DNA of 64,000 bases from Candidatus Cloacimonas acidaminovorans str. Evry (GTDB lineage Bacteria; Cloacimonadota; Cloacimonadia; Cloacimonadales; Cloacimonadaceae), in assembly GCF_000146065.2 (NCBI RefSeq), contig NC_020449.1, forward strand, positions 1,240,001 to 1,304,000. The letters are read 5' to 3'. How positions within the stretch are numbered: the first letter of the stretch is position 1; each line of letters starts with the position of its first letter. A model generated the notes under the pieces. The model was not told where the DNA came from, did no database searches, and saw only the letters and a program-made list of their open reading frames with translations. Both the position numbers and the translations under genes were made by a program. Positions 6,970 to 25,159 of the stretch are shown here, piece after piece.

Positions 6970-7840
6970 GAATGGAAATAACTTAATTCCTTTCTTTAAA
7001 AAGAGTTCCGTAGGAACGACAGATAATAACGACGGGTTTCAACCTGGCGCAAAAAGCAGATGAAAACAGCATATCTCCTTCTTTCCGAGAGAGTTCCGTA
7101 GGAACGACAGATACTAACAACGGGTTTTAACCCGGTGAAAAAAGCAAATAGAAATCCCATAATTCCTTTTATCCGAAAGAGTTCCGTAGGAACGACAGAT
7201 ACTAACAACGGGTTTTAACCCGGTGAAAAAGAATCCAGGATATTTATTTCTTCATCTTTCGGGAAAAAGTTCCGTAGGAACGACAGATATTAACAACGGG
7301 TTTTAACCCGGTGAAAAAAGCAAATAGAAATCCCATAATTCCTTTTATCCGAAAGAGTTCCGTAGGAACGACAGGTACTAATAACGGGTTTCAACCCGGT
7401 GAAAAAACAAATAGAAATCCCATAATTCCTTTTATCCGAAAGAGTTCCGTAGGAACGACAGATATTAACAACGGGTTTCAACCCGGTGAAAAAAGCAAAT
7501 AGAAATCCCATAATTCCTTTTATCCGAAAGAGTTCCGTAGGAACGACAGGTACTAACAACGGGTTTTAACCCGGTGAAAAAGAATCCAGGATATTTATTT
7601 CTTCATCTTTCGGGAAAAAGTTCCGTAGGAACAACAGATATTAACAACGGGTTTCAACCCGGTGAAAAAGAACCCAGGATATTTATTTCTTTACCTTTTG
7701 GGAAAAAGTTCCGTAGGAACGACAGATAATAACGACGGGTTTCAACCCGGCGCAAAAAGGAAATTGAAATAACTTAAATCCTTTCTTTAGAGAGAGTTCC
7801 GTAGGAACGACAGGTATTAAATAAGGAAGGTTAACTCGGT
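6970..7840. repeat. 88-bp tandem array of double-hairpin repeats, ten copies
   Basis: Ten copies of TTCCGTAGGAA occur at 7006, 7094, 7182, 7270, 7358, 7445, 7533, 7621, 7709 and 7797, so the period is 88 bp (once 87). Each copy has a conserved ~52-bp core: the TTCC-GTA-GGAA hairpin, then CGACAG, then a second hairpin CGGGTT-TCA-AACCCG, then GTGAAAAA. The ~36-bp segments between cores are not unique. They fall into about four types that recur (one beginning AGCAAATAGAAATCCC, one GAATCCAGGATATTT, and others). Compensatory changes in the stems (TTTTAACCCG versus TTTCAACCCG) and no coding constraint point to a structured RNA or DNA-binding array. ORFs across it are repeat translations and not genes. 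Confidence 0.9.
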
Positions 7841-8787: not shown

Positions 8788-9576
8788 TTACAAAATTGTT
8801 AATTGCTCATCAACCGGAGGATAAAACAAACCCACGATAGTAAAAGGGTTAGGTAATCTTCTTTGATGATGCTCCAAAGTTGTTCCCAGAATAAAATACA
8901 TATCCTTATTATTTGCTATATCTTCCAATTTATTAATTACCTTTTGGCATGCTTCTTTTTCACTTTTAGATGATTTTAAGCAATTCCAATAAAGAGCTCC
9001 AATTTCCCAATCCAAAATACTCATAGTATGTTCTGAACCATTGATGTCTTTAAATGTGTATTTAAAATTACAGGGCATCTTTTTTAAGGGAATTTGAGGT
9101 GCAATATTAAATATATTAAGTTGTAAAAATTTCTCTTGTTCTTCTTTATTCCAGTTTCTTTTACAGTGTTCATAACCTGCAGAAACAATAGAACTTGGTT
9201 TATATGTTGCCAGGGAAATATTTTTAGGTTCTTGAGAGTCCCTAAGTAAAACATCTAAGGAATCATAAACATTGTTAAGAATATATTCCTTTTTAACATC
9301 ATAGGAGGTTACTTGCTCCAATGTTGTTATTTCATCATCAAAATTTTTTAAACGATAACTTTCCGGTCTAAAATCTCTCCCTTCTGTTTTCTCAATATCA
9401 ACTTCAATCCACTGAAATTTTTTATACCGCTCTGCTAAAGGTCTTGAGCGGAAATTAATGGGATAAATTCTAATCCATTTTTTGTCTTCATCCAAGCCGG
9501 CAGTGCAGACCGTCTCATTATACTTTTGAGAAGGATTGGGATAGGTTTTTACTGCTATAAGTATTTTCTTCTTCAT
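8788..9576 (-). CDS. Uncharacterised DUF488-partner protein, last gene of putative defence cluster
   Basis: I recognise this as an uncharacterised family often found beside DUF488 proteins, but know no function for it. The 262-residue soluble protein begins KILIAVKTYPNPSQKY and continues with WIRIYPINFR, which looks like a small beta-rich domain. It then has FQWIEVDIEKTEGRDFRPES and ends in LPNPFTIVGLFYPP. No signal peptide, membrane segment or catalytic motif is obvious. It starts at ATG 9576, overlapping the stop of the DUF488 gene by 4 bp, so the two are coupled and probably work as a pair. It is the terminal gene of a minus-strand run that begins with a helicase and a DNA methylase, so a nucleic-acid-directed defence or regulatory role is inferred. 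Confidence 0.6.
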   Translation of the reverse strand: MKKKILIAVKTYPNPSQKYNETVCTAGLDEDKKWIRIYPINFRSRPLAERYKKFQWIEVDIEKTEGRDFRPESYRLKNFDDEITTLEQVTSYDVKKEYILNNVYDSLDVLLRDSQEPKNISLATYKPSSIVSAGYEHCKRNWNKEEQEKFLQLNIFNIAPQIPLKKMPCNFKYTFKDINGSEHTMSILDWEIGALYWNCLKSSKSEKEACQKVINKLEDIANNKDMYFILGTTLEHHQRRLPNPFTIVGLFYPPVDEQLTIL

Positions 9577-10442
9577 AAATCCACCAATTTATACTCTTGA
9601 GGTAAGTTATCATAAATGATTTTGGCAATAATGCTCCGATGGCATTCTTCAGGATTGGCTTCAAAACAGGTAAGGGCAATTCTTTTATTGGTAATAGCCA
9701 GTTCCCTAATTTTATTCAAATAATAAGAGCCGTTACTGGTTAAGTTCGTCCTAAAATCCTGAAACAAGATTTTTTTATCCTTAATTTCTTTTCTTTGCTT
9801 GGAGGATATACCCAGTTCCGGAATATGAACATATTTAATATCCATCAGATTACAAAAATTTCCTAAATTCCTTTCACTAAATTCTGGTTTCATACTAATT
9901 GCATTTGCTCTTACATCAATGAGCACTTTTATTCCGGAAAAAACAAGATCCGAAAGATATTTATCAATACTTTTACCTTCATATCCAATCGTAAATATGG
10001 AAGGGTTTGTAGTATCTGGAATTTGGGTCTTAATTTCAGACATTTCTATAGCTGATAAAAATGATTCTGCTTTACAGCTTTTGATGGCAAATCGGTGATA
10101 TTCTCTATAGACATATTGCATTAATTTCTTCGTTGAAAACATACTATATCTGGATATGATACTATTTAATATATCCCTACGCTTTGGAGTTATATTTATA
10201 TAATTTGGGTTAATTGCCCGGTATTTATTATGCTTAAAAATCAGAAAATTATTCCTAACTAAATAATCTAAATCCTTTTGTAATATAAATGAATAGGGAC
10301 CATATTTATAGGGAACAAAATCATAAGAAACCTCATCCTGCTTATAATTTGCTAAAAACATAAGCTTTTGTAGTTTTACTTTCCCTATTCCATTCAGTTG
10401 AGAAATCAAATAAAGAATTTCTTGCTGCCTTTTATATAACAT
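9573..10442 (-). CDS. DUF488 protein with N-terminal Panacea-like winged-helix domain
   Basis: Two domains are visible. Residues 1-115 resemble the Panacea/SocA-type helical winged domain (KLQKLMFLANY, then FVPYKYGPYSF). Residues about 148-289 are a DUF488 domain with the signature FTIGYEGKSIDKYL, LIDVRANAIS, YVHIPELGIS and a terminal CFEANPEECHRSIIA carrying a conserved Cys-Glu and Cys-His-Arg. DUF488 is uncharacterised but recurrent in defence and stress neighbourhoods, and its invariant polar residues suggest an enzyme. It has a good GAGGAAAGG site before the ATG and is 93 bp after the methylase, on the same strand. It is coupled to the downstream partner gene by ATGA overlap. Function is unknown; sensing or processing DNA damage marks is speculation. 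Confidence 0.75.
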   Translation of the reverse strand: MLYKRQQEILYLISQLNGIGKVKLQKLMFLANYKQDEVSYDFVPYKYGPYSFILQKDLDYLVRNNFLIFKHNKYRAINPNYINITPKRRDILNSIISRYSMFSTKKLMQYVYREYHRFAIKSCKAESFLSAIEMSEIKTQIPDTTNPSIFTIGYEGKSIDKYLSDLVFSGIKVLIDVRANAISMKPEFSERNLGNFCNLMDIKYVHIPELGISSKQRKEIKDKKILFQDFRTNLTSNGSYYLNKIRELAITNKRIALTCFEANPEECHRSIIAKIIYDNLPQEYKLVDL

Positions 10443-10535
10443 CCTTTCCTCTATTCAGCCAATATTTCATTCCCACCCATCCTTACATTATTAAACAGAT
10501 TTCCTTCTCAGTATTACAAATATTTATTATTATTT

Positions 10536-13500
10536 TTAACATGAAGAAGCCCTATTTAGACGATTTTCAATCATATCTTTTAAAATGTCCATAAATATTC
10601 TTCTTTCATCTTTTGTTAATCCCAAATAATTGAAAATGATATCATCAAGTTCAATTCTATAACTTTTATTACATTCCACAAAAAAATCATCTACCTTTTC
10701 TGTCAATAATGGTTCTAATATATCACAATAATCTTTATATTCTATTTTTGTAAAGAAACGAAATAAACCTATACTATTTATTGAGAATTTTAATGCACCA
10801 CCTCCAAGATTTGATAAACCAATAAGTTCCCTTTGAAAAACTCCAAATGAAGAGTTAAGTTGAATAAAAATACTATCTACGTTTTCTTCTTCTATCGGGA
10901 TAATCTTATAAAATTCCTTAAAAAATACATTACTCAAATTTCTTATTACTATATGTCTTGAGCCAAAAGTACGAGGATATAATATAGGCGCAATAATATC
11001 ATTTCCATTTGTTGATTTAATTCCTTTTCTTATTACACCAGGGGTATTTGTATCTACACCGAGAACATTAATATCCTTTACAGATTTAACAAAATACTTT
11101 GTTGGATATTTATCGCTAACGCTGTTATCATGTATGTATCCTTTAATTACGGCAACTTTATTCAAATTGACTAACTTATTCTCACATTTTTCTAATATAT
11201 TTAAAAAGAAGTGTGGAGATCTAATATAATAACTACCCCACATATTACCAATGTACTTATTATCCCTACTATTATTTAGTCCTTCTTCTAAAAGTTTTAT
11301 TCTGGGAACGGGATTTACTCTTAAGTCATCATAATCTATACGATTTTGTGTTTCTTCAATTGTAAGGAAGTTTTCGGTATAGAGAGAACTTTCAAAAGGA
11401 AGTTTGAAGGCAGCAAAGCGGATTAAATCATCAGAAGCAACCATTTTTTGCTTAGCTCCAATAACAGCAATAATAGTATTAATGTCTGCACTCCGGAAAA
11501 CTCTTTTGCTCAGGTTATCAATAATGAAATAAACAGGGCAGTTTTCCAAGAGGAATTTTTGTAACCAGGCACCGAATTCTACATCCAGCCAGGAATTGGA
11601 AGAAATGAAGGTTAAAATTCCTTTTGGATTAAGCAAACGCAATCCTCTAATATAGAAAAAAGTATAGAGGTCACTTTTACCGTTGATATTTGATTCCTGC
11701 AGGTCTTGGGGAAAATCCTGAGCTACCATAGTTTTTAGCAGTGCTTTATATTTACTTCTCTCTATTTTGTTTAAGGGGTCTTCAATTTCTTCTTGGGGCA
11801 CATAAGGTGGATTGCCAATAACGATGTCAAAACCTCTGTTCTCTATAAAGATTTCTGGAAAATCTATTATCCAGATAAAGGGGAGATTATGATTCATAAT
11901 TTGTTTAATTTCATATTCAACAATATTAATTTGATATTTCAGCTTTTCTATTTCATGTTTTTGTTTTTTCGTAGATAAATCCAGCTCAATTTGGATATCC
12001 GAATCCAAGAAATTATCTTGAACTTCATTTATAGAATCTCTTTCTAAGCGTTTCAAGGCAGCATTCAGTTCATTTCTTTTTTTCAGCAGAATATCTAAAT
12101 AGAGGTCTTGTTGTTTTTTCTCAATCTCAAATTGTTTATTAGAGCATTTATTATAATAGTAATCAGTTTTAAGCTTTATTAATTCTTTAATTTTCCGTTG
12201 AATATCAAGCCCAACTAATCCCTCTCCGGAAATAGGGAAAAGATAATTTCCCAAAATTTGAATAAGCGAATCACCTTGTCTTATTTTAAAATCAAAAGAA
12301 GGAAGTAATGGTTCTTCACTATTTTTCAAATTATCTTCCGCGTCAATAAGAAGTGTAATCCACAATCTCAATTGAGTAATCCAAACTGCCCATTGTTTTA
12401 CTTCCACACCATAAAGGGACTGAAAAATAATGCGTTTTTTGCGTTCAAAAGGATTACTTGGTGTCTCCTGATGTAAAAATTTTTCATATAATAAACATTC
12501 AATTTCATCTAAAACACTCAACATTCCAACAGCAAAAGCCCCTGAACCGATTGCTGGATCACAAATGGTAATTTGTTCCAGTTTTTCTAATATTTCTTTA
12601 GCTTCTTCAAAAGAAAAATTACCCGCTGTTTGTTCGTTTTCGTCGCCATATTCAGGAAAGAATAATTTATAAAGTTCTTCCAGTTTAATTGAAGAGGAAC
12701 AATTTTTCTGCAGATATTTAACTAAAGATATCCTGCACATAAAATCAACTTCCAACCGCGGTGTATATATTGCTCCATACTGTTTATTAATTAGTTTTTC
12801 AAAAATAATACCTAAGAATTCAGGGTTTAGTTCCAGTTCTTCATCATAAAGTGTATTTTCTTCCAAAGTAAAATTGTAACTGAAAAGGAATTCTGTAAAA
12901 TTATTAATCGCTTCATCAGTAATGTATAAAGCATCAAGATCGTAATTTTCATGTTTACGGAAAAGACCTCCATTTAAATAAGGTGCATTCACTAATTGGG
13001 TATTAAAAGGTTCTGTAATATTAGGAAAGCTAAATTTATTTTTTTGAGAAGGAGCTGAATTTAATGCTTGAAAAAATAGAGGGCAAAGCAGGTCTTGGTA
13101 GATACCATTTTTATGAATATCCGAGTTATAGGTTTTTATATAATTCTGAATAAATTTACTATTATTTCCCAGCCAACCCTTTTTTTGCACAAAACCCAGA
13201 AAAATTATACGAAGAACAAAAGGAAGAGAAAAATCACCTCTCTTTTCTGCAGTTATATCTTGATTATAAAGATGCTTAATACCCTTCTGTAATTTGGCAT
13301 ATTCTTGTTCAAATTCCTGATAAAACAAATCGGAAATTCTTTCTACAGAAAACATTTCTTTTATTTCTACCAGAGAATCAAGTTTATATTTACTAAGCTG
13401 AAGTTGATAGGTTTTATTAGGTAAATCTGCATTTATATAAAAAGAATGCCTGCGATAATTGCTGTACGCTCTTTTTGTCCCTTTATAAACAGGATAAATA

Positions 13501-13835
13501 AAACTAAAGCGAAAGGATTTGTTTTCATCATAGAAAATGAACAAACCTGCTTGTATTTGTTTTTGTTTAATAATTTCTATTGCTTTATCAAATTGTTTTT
13601 TGCGGGCAGTTTTATCAGTTAAAGGTCTATTAACTTTTATCAGATAAATTCCACAATTTGTAGCATCACTGAAGGATAGATTTCCTAAAGCGGTTATTTC
13701 TGAAAAATTAACATCATTAAGTTTGGGTAAATGATCTATTTTCTCTGCAAACACACTGGAAGCTTTGTCAAAATAGGATATCCAGTTATCCAAAGAAAAA
13801 TTGGAAGGTAAAACAAGATAAGGTTTTAATTCCAT
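10536..13835 (-). CDS. Eco57I-type DNA adenine methyltransferase of a helicase-methylase defence system
   Basis: The 1099-residue protein has the N6-adenine methylase motifs in gamma-class order: motif I DPAIGSGAF (about 426-434) and motif IV GNPPYV (about 674-679). A long target-recognition-like C-terminal part follows (about 700-1099). The N-terminal 200 residues (KVNRPLTDKTARKKQFDKA, then QAGLFIFYD) match the extra domain of type IIG-like Eco57I methylases, although I see no clear nuclease motif. A coiled insertion (about 545-650) separates motif I from motif IV. The start overlaps the end of the helicase gene by 10 bp, so both are made together. By family it should methylate adenine in a short target; whether it also restricts, or modifies self DNA for the helicase, cannot be seen. 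Confidence 0.82.
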   Translation of the reverse strand: MELKPYLVLPSNFSLDNWISYFDKASSVFAEKIDHLPKLNDVNFSEITALGNLSFSDATNCGIYLIKVNRPLTDKTARKKQFDKAIEIIKQKQIQAGLFIFYDENKSFRFSFIYPVYKGTKRAYSNYRRHSFYINADLPNKTYQLQLSKYKLDSLVEIKEMFSVERISDLFYQEFEQEYAKLQKGIKHLYNQDITAEKRGDFSLPFVLRIIFLGFVQKKGWLGNNSKFIQNYIKTYNSDIHKNGIYQDLLCPLFFQALNSAPSQKNKFSFPNITEPFNTQLVNAPYLNGGLFRKHENYDLDALYITDEAINNFTEFLFSYNFTLEENTLYDEELELNPEFLGIIFEKLINKQYGAIYTPRLEVDFMCRISLVKYLQKNCSSSIKLEELYKLFFPEYGDENEQTAGNFSFEEAKEILEKLEQITICDPAIGSGAFAVGMLSVLDEIECLLYEKFLHQETPSNPFERKKRIIFQSLYGVEVKQWAVWITQLRLWITLLIDAEDNLKNSEEPLLPSFDFKIRQGDSLIQILGNYLFPISGEGLVGLDIQRKIKELIKLKTDYYYNKCSNKQFEIEKKQQDLYLDILLKKRNELNAALKRLERDSINEVQDNFLDSDIQIELDLSTKKQKHEIEKLKYQINIVEYEIKQIMNHNLPFIWIIDFPEIFIENRGFDIVIGNPPYVPQEEIEDPLNKIERSKYKALLKTMVAQDFPQDLQESNINGKSDLYTFFYIRGLRLLNPKGILTFISSNSWLDVEFGAWLQKFLLENCPVYFIIDNLSKRVFRSADINTIIAVIGAKQKMVASDDLIRFAAFKLPFESSLYTENFLTIEETQNRIDYDDLRVNPVPRIKLLEEGLNNSRDNKYIGNMWGSYYIRSPHFFLNILEKCENKLVNLNKVAVIKGYIHDNSVSDKYPTKYFVKSVKDINVLGVDTNTPGVIRKGIKSTNGNDIIAPILYPRTFGSRHIVIRNLSNVFFKEFYKIIPIEEENVDSIFIQLNSSFGVFQRELIGLSNLGGGALKFSINSIGLFRFFTKIEYKDYCDILEPLLTEKVDDFFVECNKSYRIELDDIIFNYLGLTKDERRIFMDILKDMIENRLNRASSC

Positions 13836-16800
13836 ATCCGATCCTCTATTGCCACAATTACTTGTGGTTCGTAAACTTTTAAGCCATATTTAACTTTATT
13901 CAGATAATCTTTGCCTAAGGTCTTGCTTAATTTCTCTAATTCTTGGATAATATGTTTAAAATTGGGTTTACCATTATTATTCCAATCAGCTATTGTTTTT
14001 AAGGTATAATCCGGTAAGGTTCCATAATTTTGGATATCTTCTTTCAGCATAAGAATAAAGGGATACCAATTTTGGATATCAGAATCGGGAACTTCTAAAA
14101 GATATGAAAGAAAGTTGTATGCTTTTTCAGAATTACTAAGTTGGCTTTGTCTATATGAAAAATTATCAGCTTCTTTTTTTAACAGATTGTATGCTTGCCA
14201 GAAATCCGGGCTTAATTTAAGATGTTCAGTTTCCGGAGTGCATTCAATTCTTTTCAGGACTTCTTCAAAAGGTAAAGCCAGATAATGACCATCTTCATCT
14301 GTAAAATCCTGGCTAACGCAGAAAAGTTTGCCTTTGCGAATACACATCACCAAGGAATCGGAACTATAGGGTTTAGCGGTTTTAATTCTGATAGGCATAT
14401 TTTCCAAATCCTTCACTCGTTCCGGATATTGTTCCTTCCAGTTAAACATCAGATTCTTTAATTTAGTATATAGACCTTCCGGTTCCAGTTCATACGGATT
14501 GGTTTGTAATTTAGTAAAAAGTTTGGCAGGGGTGGGTTCTTCGTCCGGATCAAAAATACGAGTATCCTCTCCCAGTGTCTGATGAATCATAAACATTTTT
14601 TGTTCTGCTATTTCTCTGCTTTTAACAATATCTGCACCTTGTTCAGTGGGAAAGTAATTGATAATATAGAGTTTATCAAAGACCTTTTTACTTATTCTAT
14701 TTATTCTGCCTACCCTCTGAATAACCCGCACAGGATTCCAGGGAATATCATAATTGATAACAGTTGAAGCACGATTGAGGTTAAAGCCCTCGGACAATTT
14801 ATCGGTAGAAAGAAGAATATCGTAATCATCATTTTGAATGGTATGGACAGCATCAAAATTGGTATTTATTTCCTCCAGTATAGTTCCTGATAATCCTCCT
14901 GTAATAACTAAAACTCTGTTCTTAAAATGTTCTTTTAGTGATGACTCAAGATGTTTAACAGTATCGGCATATTCGGAAAAAATAACAACTTTAGCAGGTG
15001 GTTCACCTTTTTTAGGAGGTTGGTTTAGGATATTGTGCACATTTTTAAGTAAGGTATTCAGCTTGGGGTCGTTTTCCACCAGTTTTAAGGAATCAATTTC
15101 TTTCAGTATTTTTTGGAACAGAGCAATATCGGAATCCATATCGGCAAAAAACTCCTCTTTGAGGGTAAAATCATTAACATTATAAATCTTATTCTTTCTT
15201 CCTTCTTTATCCAGATTATTTTGCCTAAACTGGTCTAAAATGGCATCAATGCTTTCAGGATCATCCACATCGGCTTTATTAATTAGCTTACGATCAAGAA
15301 TATAGAGTCCATTTGAATTCTGAATAAAGGTCTTAATTTGTATATACGAATTAAGGAGATTTTCTACAGATTTTTTAAAGGCACCGAAAGAGCTTTCCAA
15401 ACGCTTTACCATTTGGCGTCTTAAGATATCATACAAATTATCCTGACTTAATTGATCTATCTGTTCCTGACGAGTTAATTTACCTTCTTCAGTTTTAATG
15501 CCTTCATACTTATAGGGCTTATAAACAGGACCTTTGAAACGATCAGGAAAATTTTGACTATCGGTAAAATATTCTTCAATAACACGGTCATAAAAAGCGG
15601 ATTGCTCTTGGGTTAATTCATAATACCATTCTTGGGGATTTTCTACTTTAGATAGTTCTTTAATTTCTTCTTTGTATTCCGGATCGGATAATAAATCTAA
15701 TCTGTTTCTGCGAACGGTAACCGGTTCTATTACTTCTCTGATTTGTTGTGAGAGTATTTTGGCTCTGCGGGTTACTTTTTTAATATCAATTTCCCCGTTA
15801 CCAAAAAGGCCATTGTATTTTCTTTGGGCATCATTCTTTTTACTTGGGTCTTCGGAATTCCGGTTTTTAGTTATAAAGGCAAGGTCTTTAAATAAGCTGT
15901 TGTAAAAGCGGAAAAGATCAACCAAATTACTGTTGAGAGTGATATTGGACTTTTTGGGAACGATAAATAAACTAAGCAAGGAAAGTATGTCGGCAGGTGT
16001 GTTATTAAAAGGAGTTGCCGTAAGTAGAATAACTTTGCGTCCCCGACAAATGGTCTTCAGCTTTTCGTAGGTCTCGGTAGTGCCGTTTCTATAACGATGT
16101 GCTTCATCCACAATGATCACTTCAATATTTTTAGCCCGGTTAAGAAATTCAATAATACTATCTAAATCCCCTCCGGAACGCACTTCCCAATCATAAAGTT
16201 CAAAATCCTCTTTATATTGTTTCCATCCGGAACGGGCAGTTTCATCTCCAATCAAACCGGGAGGACAAATAATGATACCCCTTTTTCTCATTTTCCAGCC
16301 AATTAAAGAGGCAATAATGGATTTACCCAAGCCCACAACATCCGCTAAAATAACTCCCCCATTTTCTTCCAAAATTGATAAACTCTGCCAAACGGCATCA
16401 ATTTCATATTTTAAGGGTCGGTAACCTTTCTTCTGCATAAAATAGGCAATATCGGAACTGTATTCTTCTGTGTAAAAAGTATCCAGCCAGGATTTCACTA
16501 CATACATATAGGCATCAAAAGGATGAATGGATTTAAGTAAAGTTTTATGTTGCAGATTGTTTAGCAGGGTTGCCTTTTCTTTGTCAGCTTCTGTAATAGA
16601 AATAGCATTATCCCACAAAGTATCAAAATATTGCTCTGCTTCGGAAAAACCATAATCGGAAATTTCCACATTGAATTCTTCCTGATCAGTCATACCTGCC
16701 TTGGTTAAATTACTGCTACCGGTAATAAATAAATTTTTACGAACTACCTGTTCTTCTTTCAGTTTGAATAGATAGAGCTTGGAGTGATTGGGTTTTCTTG

Positions 16801-17176
16801 TTTTTCGGATGATTATTCTACCCGCTGTAATTTGTTCAATGATATAACTTGCCTGCTGATAAAATAGTTCATTATCAAAAATATCGTTATTGATAGCTTT
16901 CAGAACGGACTGGTGATACAATACGATTCGTTCTACATTCTGTTTATATCTCTCTTCCGCATATTCTACAATACCATAGCTCAGACAATCAACATTTAAG
17001 CCAACTAGTACTTTAAGGATTAAATTCGGATTTTGTTGTAAACTGTCTATTAACTCTTGTATACCGGAAAAATAAAAAAAACCGACCAAAAATTTCAGTT
17101 CCTGGCTTTCTCTTATCAATTCTGAAAGACGGGATTTTAAGTTCTTATTTCCCGAATTGGTTATAAAATTACTCAT
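13826..17176 (-). CDS. SNF2-type helicase with N-terminal phospholipase D-like nuclease domain
   Basis: This is the first gene of the defence cluster, 1116 residues from the ATG at 17176, which has GGGGAG five bases upstream. An in-frame TTG just before it is a less likely start. Residues about 1-190 form a PLD-like domain with HSK (about 131-133) and GSSNLTKAG, i.e. a single HxK motif expected to act as a dimeric nuclease. The helicase core follows: Walker A DVVGLGKS (about 280-287), DEAH box VIIVDEAHRYRNG, motif III LLTATPFNN, and motif VI QRVGRINRIS (about 820-829). A C-terminal ~270-residue region is unassigned. Such PLD-SNF2 proteins next to methylases are a known defence-island arrangement. 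It is not the DISARM set, since drmA and drmB are absent. Confidence 0.82.
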   Translation of the reverse strand: MSNFITNSGNKNLKSRLSELIRESQELKFLVGFFYFSGIQELIDSLQQNPNLILKVLVGLNVDCLSYGIVEYAEERYKQNVERIVLYHQSVLKAINNDIFDNELFYQQASYIIEQITAGRIIIRKTRKPNHSKLYLFKLKEEQVVRKNLFITGSSNLTKAGMTDQEEFNVEISDYGFSEAEQYFDTLWDNAISITEADKEKATLLNNLQHKTLLKSIHPFDAYMYVVKSWLDTFYTEEYSSDIAYFMQKKGYRPLKYEIDAVWQSLSILEENGGVILADVVGLGKSIIASLIGWKMRKRGIIICPPGLIGDETARSGWKQYKEDFELYDWEVRSGGDLDSIIEFLNRAKNIEVIIVDEAHRYRNGTTETYEKLKTICRGRKVILLTATPFNNTPADILSLLSLFIVPKKSNITLNSNLVDLFRFYNSLFKDLAFITKNRNSEDPSKKNDAQRKYNGLFGNGEIDIKKVTRRAKILSQQIREVIEPVTVRRNRLDLLSDPEYKEEIKELSKVENPQEWYYELTQEQSAFYDRVIEEYFTDSQNFPDRFKGPVYKPYKYEGIKTEEGKLTRQEQIDQLSQDNLYDILRRQMVKRLESSFGAFKKSVENLLNSYIQIKTFIQNSNGLYILDRKLINKADVDDPESIDAILDQFRQNNLDKEGRKNKIYNVNDFTLKEEFFADMDSDIALFQKILKEIDSLKLVENDPKLNTLLKNVHNILNQPPKKGEPPAKVVIFSEYADTVKHLESSLKEHFKNRVLVITGGLSGTILEEINTNFDAVHTIQNDDYDILLSTDKLSEGFNLNRASTVINYDIPWNPVRVIQRVGRINRISKKVFDKLYIINYFPTEQGADIVKSREIAEQKMFMIHQTLGEDTRIFDPDEEPTPAKLFTKLQTNPYELEPEGLYTKLKNLMFNWKEQYPERVKDLENMPIRIKTAKPYSSDSLVMCIRKGKLFCVSQDFTDEDGHYLALPFEEVLKRIECTPETEHLKLSPDFWQAYNLLKKEADNFSYRQSQLSNSEKAYNFLSYLLEVPDSDIQNWYPFILMLKEDIQNYGTLPDYTLKTIADWNNNGKPNFKHIIQELEKLSKTLGKDYLNKVKYGLKVYEPQVIVAIEDRIWN

Positions 17177-17833
17177 CAATACTCCCCTTACTTAAATATA
17201 ATCAGCATAGCTTAAAATTATGAGCATAAATATAAATACTTTATCCTGCATAAACTGATTTAACCTGAAGATTACTATGTGCGTAATTTATAGGGTGACA
17301 AAATCGATTTGTCGTCCAAAAATAATAAAAGAGTTTCACGCTTTGTGCTTTTTTACCTTTACACTATTTTATTACCTATTTTAGATGAACAGTAATAAAA
17401 CATACTCTTTATAGCCGCTACAAAATAGTCAAGAACTTTATTTGCTGTAGTTCTTTCTTCCTGCTGTAACTGTCATAGTTTTTTTCCTGCTGTTACTGCT
17501 GTAACTCAAAACCGGTCTTTGGGCTGACGATGTAAAGCGAGGGCAGGTGAAAAATATACTGCTGGCGTGAAAAGCTTTTTTTGGTTAAAGAAAACCGGTT
17601 TTAAGTCACTAAACCGTTGTTCTTTTTTCCTGCTGTTACCGCTGTAACTCAAAACCGGTCTTTGGGCTGACGATGTAAAGCGAAGGCAGGTGAAAAATAT
17701 ACTGCTGGAGTAAAAAGCTTGTTTTGGTTAAAGAAAACCGGTTTTAAGTCACAGCAGACATTTTCTCTTGACTTCTTGACCTCTTAACTTCGTGACCTCT
17801 CTATTTATCTATTTATCGTACTCTCGGTTTTTT
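17177..17833. other. Intergenic region with a duplicated 129-bp unit
   Basis: No gene is visible. Both flanking genes are on the minus strand, so this is the leader of the defence cluster and the 3' flank of the DUF4097 gene. Its main content is the tandem duplication at 17481-17752. Confidence 0.6.
17481..17752. repeat. Two tandem copies of a ~129-bp unit, period 143 bp
   Basis: Copies at 17481-17609 and 17624-17752 are almost identical. Each begins TTCCTGCTGTTAC, contains GGGCTGACGATGTAAAGCGA and GGCAGGTGAAAAATATACTG, and is bounded by inverted AAAACCGGTCTTT / AAAGAAAACCGGTTTT, giving each copy a large stem. The GGCAGGTGAAAA word also occurs in the 99-bp elements at 43112, 62702 and 63098. 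Confidence 0.85.
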
Positions 17834-22876: not shown

Positions 22877-25159
22877 TTACTTGATTACTAATACTTTATT
22901 AATACCGCTTTGTTCTCCCTGCTGCCAATGCAGGAAATAAATTCCATCCGCTACAGTTTTTCCCTTTACATCACTTCTATTCCAACTGATCTGAGAATTC
23001 AACGGATCGCTTATCAGCAATTCCTTTACTAATTGACCTTTAATATTGTAAATGTGAATTCTAACAGGAGCTTTGTTGGTTCCTGTAAATTTTAGCATTG
23101 CATTATCCTGAAAGGGATTAGGATAGATTTCCAGTTTCGGTTCGGGCACAGCAACAATTTCATCTTCATTAGCCGTATAAGCTGAAAGGACCACATTGGC
23201 AGTTCCAACATCTGAAATTGCTACATTATTATAAAAGAAATCACTAATAGAAATCTGAGTGACGGATATAGAACCTGTATTACCTATAGCTTTGAATCTA
23301 ATTTTCATTAGAGCTCCGGCTCCAATTAGAGGAACAGTTGAATTACCTGTAATATTTAAAACACCTGGATTGGATGAATCAACATTAACTTCACAATTTG
23401 CACTTATCATTCCTTCTGTTATGATGTCGTTATATGCTATTTTGGCAGGATTATAGTTAAGATGATATTGGAAATGAGTAATATTCCAGGAAGGAAGCAA
23501 ATAAGTAGTATTCATCTGTGTAGTACCAATTGAATTATAAGTCAGATTCATAATATTGGTAAGCACAATTCGGCTCTCAGCTATGTTGTCTACAGGAGCA
23601 GAAGAATGAATCATCACATAGCTTACATTAGAAACCGGAGTAGTATTATAATGCATACTCGTTATATCAAACAGAAAATCTCCCATATCTCTGGTTCTAA
23701 ATGTAAAGTTAATTAATACTCCACCACCGCAGATATGAGCCGTATTATTCCAATCTACGCTTATAATTCCGGAAGGATTTTCAACTACGGTAATAGTTCC
23801 ATTTTCAGAAATAGTTCCCGTGGTGGAATAACCTATATAATCAATAAATTCACTGTCATAATATAACACAAAATCGTAATGAGTTACATTCCAACTACCC
23901 AGAATGGGATTCGTTTTAACGGTAACCGTAAAATTATCACCTGCAGTTGTATCATGCGCTATAAGTTTTACCGGAACAGCGGAAATGCTGTAGTTCTCCG
24001 GAATAATATTGATAATAGCACTCTGATTGTTAGTAAAGCCACCTGGATTGCTGGTATAAAAATAACCATTACCTGAACCACTCCAGCCAAAATTGAAGTG
24101 GAAATGATTAGCAGTATCGTAACCATCCATTACAAAAGCATGACCCCCTTCTACGGGATCATAACCACTATAATAAACAGGAATGCCATTATCAACTTGA
24201 GAAGTTAATAAATTATTCCAATTGGCATCCGTATAACTGTTTTTCATTACATATTGTGCATTAGGATAACGGAAATGTTCTACAAATGCCAAAGCCGCAT
24301 CTGTACTTTGAGCTCCTGAACCATCAATAGAATAACCCATATGAACAGCAACACCACAATGATATAATAATGTCGCAATCGGCAAATATTCAGCTGGTGT
24401 CGCTCCTGCTGTATCATACATTTGATCCCAAAGGTAAGTAGTGTTTTCGAAATTAGCACTTTGATAGCCATAACCGGGACAATAGTAACTATCACTACCT
24501 ACTCCGGTTTGGGGATGATTCCAATATTTCATAACCATACCCATTGCTGTAGCTACACAACCTGCATAAACATGACCTCCAGAACCTTGAGAATCTACAG
24601 GACAAAGCGCATTATAGGGCCATCCCTGATCCCAAAGCGTCGTCAATAAAGGTCCTACAGAACGCTCTGTTCTAAAAGCATTCCTATAAGAACCTTCAAT
24701 TAAACTCTGCCACAGTTGAACATTTTCCGGATATGCAATTTTCGCTTCTCTAATTTGTTCAATTTGAGCTGAATAATTTTCCAACCAGTAATAGAAAGCA
24801 GGTGGTAGGTTATTGATATCGGTTAACCCTTCATCTGAATATGCCAAAACGGGATAGAAATTATCCTCAGCTGACACAATTGCATAATTACCGTTTGCAT
24901 AATTAATAAAATAGAGTGTTGGCTCAAATTCTACCGCTTTATTGAACTCCAAAGGCAATAGCTTCCCCGAACTATAAACAAATAGTTCGGCATTACCTGC
25001 ATAAATCGGACTTTTTAGTCCCGCTTCTTGAAGGTAATATTTTGCAGCCAGCAAAGCATTATCCGGCTCTACTACTTTAGCCCACATAATAATAGTGACC
25101 AGGCATAATCCTGCAACGAGCATAATTTTTCTCGCTAATTGATTCCGATTTAATCTCAT
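22877..25159 (-). CDS. Secreted C10 (streptopain-like) cysteine peptidase with cohesin-like domains and type IX-like sorting domain
   Basis: The 760-residue protein has an N-terminal signal (hydrophobic about 12-27) and a Spi-type propeptide (about 28-165). The C10 peptidase domain follows, with the catalytic cysteine in YAGCVATAMG (C201), catalytic histidine in GGHAFVMDGYD (H340), and GWSGSGNGYF (W359). Two cohesin-like beta domains come next (about 395-515 and 530-650, each with a WNVTHY or WNITHF strand). The C-terminal ~85 residues (IYPNPF, then IYNIKGQLV, GIYFLHW) are a type IX-like sorting domain. A clear GGGAGGATAA site precedes the ATG. It probably digests protein outside the cell or at its surface, feeding amino acid fermentation; that role is inferred. 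Confidence 0.88.
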   Translation of the reverse strand: MRLNRNQLARKIMLVAGLCLVTIIMWAKVVEPDNALLAAKYYLQEAGLKSPIYAGNAELFVYSSGKLLPLEFNKAVEFEPTLYFINYANGNYAIVSAEDNFYPVLAYSDEGLTDINNLPPAFYYWLENYSAQIEQIREAKIAYPENVQLWQSLIEGSYRNAFRTERSVGPLLTTLWDQGWPYNALCPVDSQGSGGHVYAGCVATAMGMVMKYWNHPQTGVGSDSYYCPGYGYQSANFENTTYLWDQMYDTAGATPAEYLPIATLLYHCGVAVHMGYSIDGSGAQSTDAALAFVEHFRYPNAQYVMKNSYTDANWNNLLTSQVDNGIPVYYSGYDPVEGGHAFVMDGYDTANHFHFNFGWSGSGNGYFYTSNPGGFTNNQSAIINIIPENYSISAVPVKLIAHDTTAGDNFTVTVKTNPILGSWNVTHYDFVLYYDSEFIDYIGYSTTGTISENGTITVVENPSGIISVDWNNTAHICGGGVLINFTFRTRDMGDFLFDITSMHYNTTPVSNVSYVMIHSSAPVDNIAESRIVLTNIMNLTYNSIGTTQMNTTYLLPSWNITHFQYHLNYNPAKIAYNDIITEGMISANCEVNVDSSNPGVLNITGNSTVPLIGAGALMKIRFKAIGNTGSISVTQISISDFFYNNVAISDVGTANVVLSAYTANEDEIVAVPEPKLEIYPNPFQDNAMLKFTGTNKAPVRIHIYNIKGQLVKELLISDPLNSQISWNRSDVKGKTVADGIYFLHWQQGEQSGINKVLVIK

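Follow-up and report, generated by a model that had tools for sequence, protein, structure and literature searches.

Two separable defence-like modules at a four-gene locus of Candidatus Cloacimonas acidaminovorans: a restriction-modification-like pair and a catalogued DUF488 pair

Gene content of the locus

Four minus-strand ORFs at positions 8788-17176 of the window (the whole 64,000-nucleotide stretch of contig NC_020449.1 of Candidatus Cloacimonas acidaminovorans strain Evry that was analysed) raise the question whether a nuclease-helicase fusion, an adenine methylase, a DUF488 protein and a fourth protein form one undescribed defence system, as an earlier note on this DNA had proposed, or a combination of separable parts. 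The ORF list agrees with the layout given in that note: the helicase and methylase ORFs overlap by 10 bp, the methylase and DUF488 ORFs are 93 bp apart, and the DUF488 and partner ORFs share the 4 bp of an ATGA (Table 1). The helicase gene begins with the ATG at 17176, one codon downstream of a TTG, and is preceded by a ribosome-binding-like stretch, GGGGAG.

Table 1. Features of the four-gene locus, in window coordinates.
Feature	Position	Strand	Basis
PLD-nuclease and SNF2/SF2 helicase fusion, 1116 aa	13826..17176	-	Pfam, PADLOC, motifs
Eco57I-type (IIG-like) adenine DNA methyltransferase, 1099 aa	10536..13835	-	Pfam, PADLOC, motifs
Methylase C-terminal exchangeable part (residues ~899-1099), predicted target-recognition domain	10539..11141	-	identity drop
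DUF488 enzyme with DarG/Panacea-like N-terminal domain (PDC-M19A), 289 aa	9573..10442	-	Pfam, PADLOC, model
Partner, predicted tandem OB fold (PDC-M19B), 262 aa	8788..9576	-	PADLOC, AlphaFold2, Foldseek

The neighbouring ORFs that were checked with Pfam encode RecO, NFACT, DUF4097, DUF2089 and LpxB. Two direct copies of a 143-bp sequence, 96% alike, lie just upstream of the helicase gene (window 17480-17752), and at 6984-7820 an 88-bp unit containing two short palindromes, GTTCCGTAGGAAC and CGGGTTTTAACCCG, is repeated about 9.5 times in tandem; this unit has 108 matches genome-wide, in dozens of clusters. The window also encodes a secreted C10-family peptidase (22877-25159) that combines an inhibitor-like domain of its own with a Por secretion tail.

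The helicase-methylase pair

Pfam domains and intact motifs uphold the description of the first two genes as a PLD-type nuclease, SNF2 helicase and adenine methylase. The helicase protein (RE_NgoFVII, PLDc_2, SNF2-rel_dom and Helicase_C domains; best PADLOC match C3a139 HKD+Snf2) has the PLD motif HSK...GSSN at 132 (consensus HxK...GSxN), whose catalytic H and K are invariant among 14 aligned relatives, together with GLGKS, DEAH and QRVGRINR, and is predicted to be an ATP-dependent nuclease-translocase. The methylase (Pfam Eco57I, E = 4e-29; PADLOC REase_MTase_IIG, E = 2e-45) has intact catalytic motifs DPAIGSGAF and NPPY.

A genome search found full-length relatives, 43-82% identical, in 15 other genomes, with the methylase gene directly adjacent at 12 of the 15 loci, one gene away at two (L077 and L079), and at a contig edge at the last (L078). 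No third gene family recurs at more than three of the 15 loci. Residues 1-898 of the methylase are conserved (48-85% identity to the window protein); residues 899-1099 are 20-26% identical to the window sequence in G001 (L025), L066, L073 and L074, and 54-63% identical in L068 and L070. The C-terminal part of about 200 residues has been swapped between close relatives, a behaviour typical of target-recognition domains, and three loci have a distant whole methylase (27-33% identity) beside a helicase of 67-70% identity. Such domain exchange and whole-methylase replacement are evolution typical of restriction-modification systems. Because the C-terminal exchange fits a target-recognition domain, this pair (module 1) is regarded as an ATP-dependent restriction-modification-like system of the PLD-SF2 kind, having the nuclease and ATPase motifs, the motifs of a cognate methylase and an exchangeable predicted recognition domain.

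A PLD nuclease and an SF2 ATPase on one chain are an established restriction design in SauUSI, in which the nuclease is likewise N-terminal to the ATPase (PMC7913695), but that enzyme recognises DNA through an SRA domain of its own and cleaves it when modified (type IV), whereas in the window an overlapping methylase gene probably supplies recognition; a sequence search of the PDB gave no match to SauUSI. The same two activities, with a methylase, make up CglI and NgoAVII (PMC4267653, PMC5737866), and the window helicase protein matches the NgoFVII PLD family. The nuclease and ATPase of CglI and NgoAVII are separate subunits, however, and the R subunit bears a B3 recognition domain, whereas those of the window are fused and accompanied by an Eco57I-type adenine methylase. 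An SNF2-type helicase with a PglX/DrmMI-like adenine methylase also recalls DISARM, BREX and Hma, but the window proteins score far under the curated cut-offs (141 of 610 bits for DrmD, 49 of 500 for PglX). No DrmA, DrmB, PglZ or Hma ATPase adjoins the locus and neither hsdS nor hsdR was detected there with Pfam and PADLOC, so that the exclusion of DISARM, BREX and type I systems made in the earlier note stands for the four genes and the checked flanks.

The DUF488 protein and its predicted OB-fold partner

The last two genes (module 2) encode full-length matches to PADLOC candidates, PDC-M19A for the DUF488 protein (E = 2.6e-92, residues 3-288 of 289) and PDC-M19B for the partner (E = 3.6e-97, residues 2-260 of 262), adjacent and overlapping in the ATGA, the same two-gene arrangement as in PDC-M19. 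Since these models match over the whole length, the pair is already catalogued as a defence candidate; the PADLOC search suggested in the earlier note as a check thus takes away the undescribed status of these two genes. PDC entries derive from a guilt-by-embedding search, and the majority lack validation (PMC12988326); two other PDC candidates, tested in one study, were without activity (PMC12409345). Literature searches found nothing on PDC-M19 and no published experiments on the pair. A defence paper on Gordonia phage CarolAnn was considered as direct evidence and rejected, its defence genes 43/44 being a different pair (membrane/DUF4747). PADLOC-DB gives no mechanism for PDC-M19, to which the present analysis adds the predicted fold of the partner, two gene arrangements and placement behind restriction genes of several types.

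The DUF488 protein (Pfam DUF488, E = 7e-22; model pLDDT 96.5) has residues D176, R178, S183, R217, C259, E261 and C267-H268-R269 invariant among 60 sequences, consistent with an active enzyme, and has weak matches to PTP-fold phosphatases. Its N-terminal part weakly matches DarG models and its predicted fold there matches the DarTG complex entry 7yk3. No DUF4065 match was obtained at the Pfam cut-off, the similarity being DarG-like only; the label "Panacea" in the earlier note is accordingly without Pfam support, and identity with a classic Panacea antitoxin (PanAT) was dropped. The pair might be a toxin-antitoxin in which the DarG/Panacea-like domain keeps a toxic DUF488 enzyme or OB partner in check and thereby stabilises the restriction genes or kills infected cells, as the N-terminal similarity to DarG and the promiscuity of Panacea domains as antitoxins (PMC8832971) suggest, but this is improbable: the antitoxin-like domain is fused to a conserved DUF488 enzyme instead of being separately encoded, is missing from convergent plasmid and phage forms that retain both DUF488 and partner, and has no DUF4065 match in Pfam.

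The partner has no Pfam family. Its AlphaFold2 model (pLDDT 92.3) contains two OB domains, and its best Foldseek matches in the PDB are archaeal RPA, CST, Teb1, telomere end-binding protein and HIN-200. With Foldseek probabilities near 1 and the secondary structure as the grounds for the OB call, and full-length TM-scores that are low (0.2-0.3), the model indicates a tandem (dual) OB-fold protein similar to RPA and to proteins that bind telomere ends. No solved structure related by sequence to either the DUF488 protein or the partner was found.

A genome scan confirmed at least 575 relatives of the partner, the best 80 of which belong to Bacteroidota, Chloroflexota, Ignavibacteria, Brachyspira and other groups. 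The partner is also present on 45 viral contigs; a search by DNA similarity gave no E. coli copies. Of 125 loci from bacteria, plasmids and prophages, 122 have both DUF488 and partner: the two genes lie in tandem at 98 of these and converge at 23, and at the remaining one, L092, they are in tandem but the ORF of the partner is truncated. The coupling of the last two genes claimed in the earlier note is thereby confirmed, and its "unknown partner" can now be described as a predicted dual OB-fold protein of the PDC-M19B family. The N-terminal domain is present on DUF488 in 91 of the 98 tandem loci, the convergent loci have a stand-alone DUF488, and on an archaeal plasmid a ParB-DUF488 version adjoins the partner.

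Separability of the modules and placement behind restriction genes

The locus consists of two separable modules, one restriction-like and one already listed as a defence candidate, not of one undescribed system. The DUF488 pair mostly occurs without the PLD-SNF2 helicase or Eco57I methylase of module 1, and among the 15 other module-1 genomes it is adjacent only in G001, whose locus agrees with that of the window in the flanking NFACT and RecO genes and is thus the same inherited (syntenic) locus. Profile searches found the partner in 16 of 125 genomes of the phylum and in none of the contigs of 13 of the 15 module-1 genomes, some of which are incomplete assemblies; in G096 module 1 and the DUF488 pair are on different contigs. 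An obligate four-gene system, with restriction by module 1 dependent on DUF488 and partner, would fit the gene order shared by the window and G001 and a distant version of that order in one other lineage (L111), but most helicase-methylase pairs are in genomes without the DUF488 pair, and with the distributions of the two pairs separate this reading, very improbable, was rejected. The gap between the modules (93 bp in the window, about 155 bp or more in G001) means that they may be transcribed apart.

The claim of one undescribed four-gene system is therefore not supported, its last two proteins being PDC-M19A and PDC-M19B and its modules separable across genomes. The accompanying suggestions fared better: the locus is predicted to be defence-like, with a restriction-like module and a PADLOC defence candidate, and the DUF488 pair behaves like an arm added to the helicase-methylase pair. 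One refutation named in the earlier note, a complete lack of co-occurrence of helicase-methylase pairs with DUF488 and partner in other genomes, holds only in part: L111 has a distant version of the four-gene order and G001 the syntenic one, and 13 of the 15 other module-1 genomes are without the partner.

The new observation is that the pair recurs directly downstream of restriction genes of unrelated types (IIG, ISP, III, I and Hma-like). The directly upstream gene on the same strand encodes a restriction-modification protein or related helicase in about 11 of 60 pair loci, and control genes four positions away are of restriction type in 2-3 of 60 (Fisher p 0.008-0.02), in a survey of small counts with simple ORF-rule gene calls on the 80 loci closest to the query profile. 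The upstream genes are type IIG (L090), ResIII-Eco57I (L097), ISP (L112), type III Mod (L137), an N6/N4 methylase (L099), an Hma-like helicase (L113), HsdS (L088 and one more), HsdR (L102 and L160) and Eco57I with PLD-SNF2 (L111); one TmtA gene, beyond these approximately 11, is also directly upstream of the pair. Restriction linkage needs at least 8-11 changes on the partner tree, and several gaps between restriction gene and pair are only 7-30 bp, on the same strand.

At about 80% of pair loci the gene directly upstream is not a restriction gene, and the pair may therefore act alone. It could be an independent two-gene defence unit (for example abortive-infection or nucleic-acid-modifying) that neighbours restriction genes by coincidence, through shared defence islands. 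The majority of pairs are isolated and preceded by a gap of their own, plasmids (archaeal ones among them) and phage contigs carry pairs without adjoining restriction genes, and 13 of 15 helicase-methylase genomes have no partner gene, all of which suits such a unit; the concentration of restriction genes of many unrelated types directly upstream, on the same strand and in some cases at 7-30 bp, speaks against coincidence, and we hold the independent unit to be a real but lesser possibility. The temperate Gordonia phage Nymphadora (L208) has the pair as genes 42 and 43 (gene 42, annotated as a HipA toxin, is DUF488 by profile, E = 1.9e-36; gene 43 matches the dual OB partner, E = 2.4e-54) adjoining the immunity repressor, a usual site for genes expressed in lysogeny, and was counted in favour of an accessory role.

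The preferred reading, with a probability of roughly 0.55, is that the locus comprises two tandem modules, an ATP-dependent restriction-modification-like pair and a portable accessory pair that binds and processes DNA ends. The methylase would recognise its target via the exchangeable C-terminal domain and methylate adenine there; on unmethylated invading DNA it would engage the PLD-SNF2 protein, which would translocate and cut. Restriction would leave broken or single-stranded DNA ends, which the dual OB-fold partner may bind and which the DUF488 enzyme, centred on a cysteine and with a rhodanese/phosphatase-like fold, may process or cap, making cleavage irreparable; the DarG/Panacea-like N-terminus of this enzyme would be a regulatory or docking domain. 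End processing after restriction is favoured because an end-binding-type fold and a catalytic cysteine enzyme are recurrently placed behind nucleases. Burroughs and Aravind are said to have predicted, in 2023, DNA-end processing by enzymes of the RapZ-C-DUF488-DUF4326 clade in conflict systems. The analysis itself establishes the gene content, the intact motifs, the exchangeable recognition region, the near-universal coupling of the DUF488 pair and its separability from module 1, the predicted OB folds and the recurrent placement behind unrelated restriction genes; that the proteins cleave, methylate, bind ends, carry out a DUF488 reaction or protect against phages is inferred.

A wider role, which is rather doubtful, would make DUF488 and the dual OB protein a general restriction cofactor that caps or trims the ends produced by many unrelated nucleases and renders their cuts irreparable, an unrecognised step after cleavage. 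If several restriction types do share one portable DNA-end module, restriction goes beyond cutting, and a class of catalogued, unexplained defence candidates would gain a testable biochemical role. The four genes should also not be counted as one new system.

In the convergent phage and plasmid forms (L180-L198 and L208) the 3' ends of the DUF488 and partner genes mostly overlap by tens of bases, and antisense transcripts would therefore arise. Of the 16 phylum genomes that have the partner gene, four (G082:C112, G097:C42, G080:C144 and G096:C53) have it broken into two frames, which may reflect decay, assembly error or frameshifting; DUF488 is intact alongside in G082, G097 and G096, and the DUF488 match of G080 is on another contig (C140).
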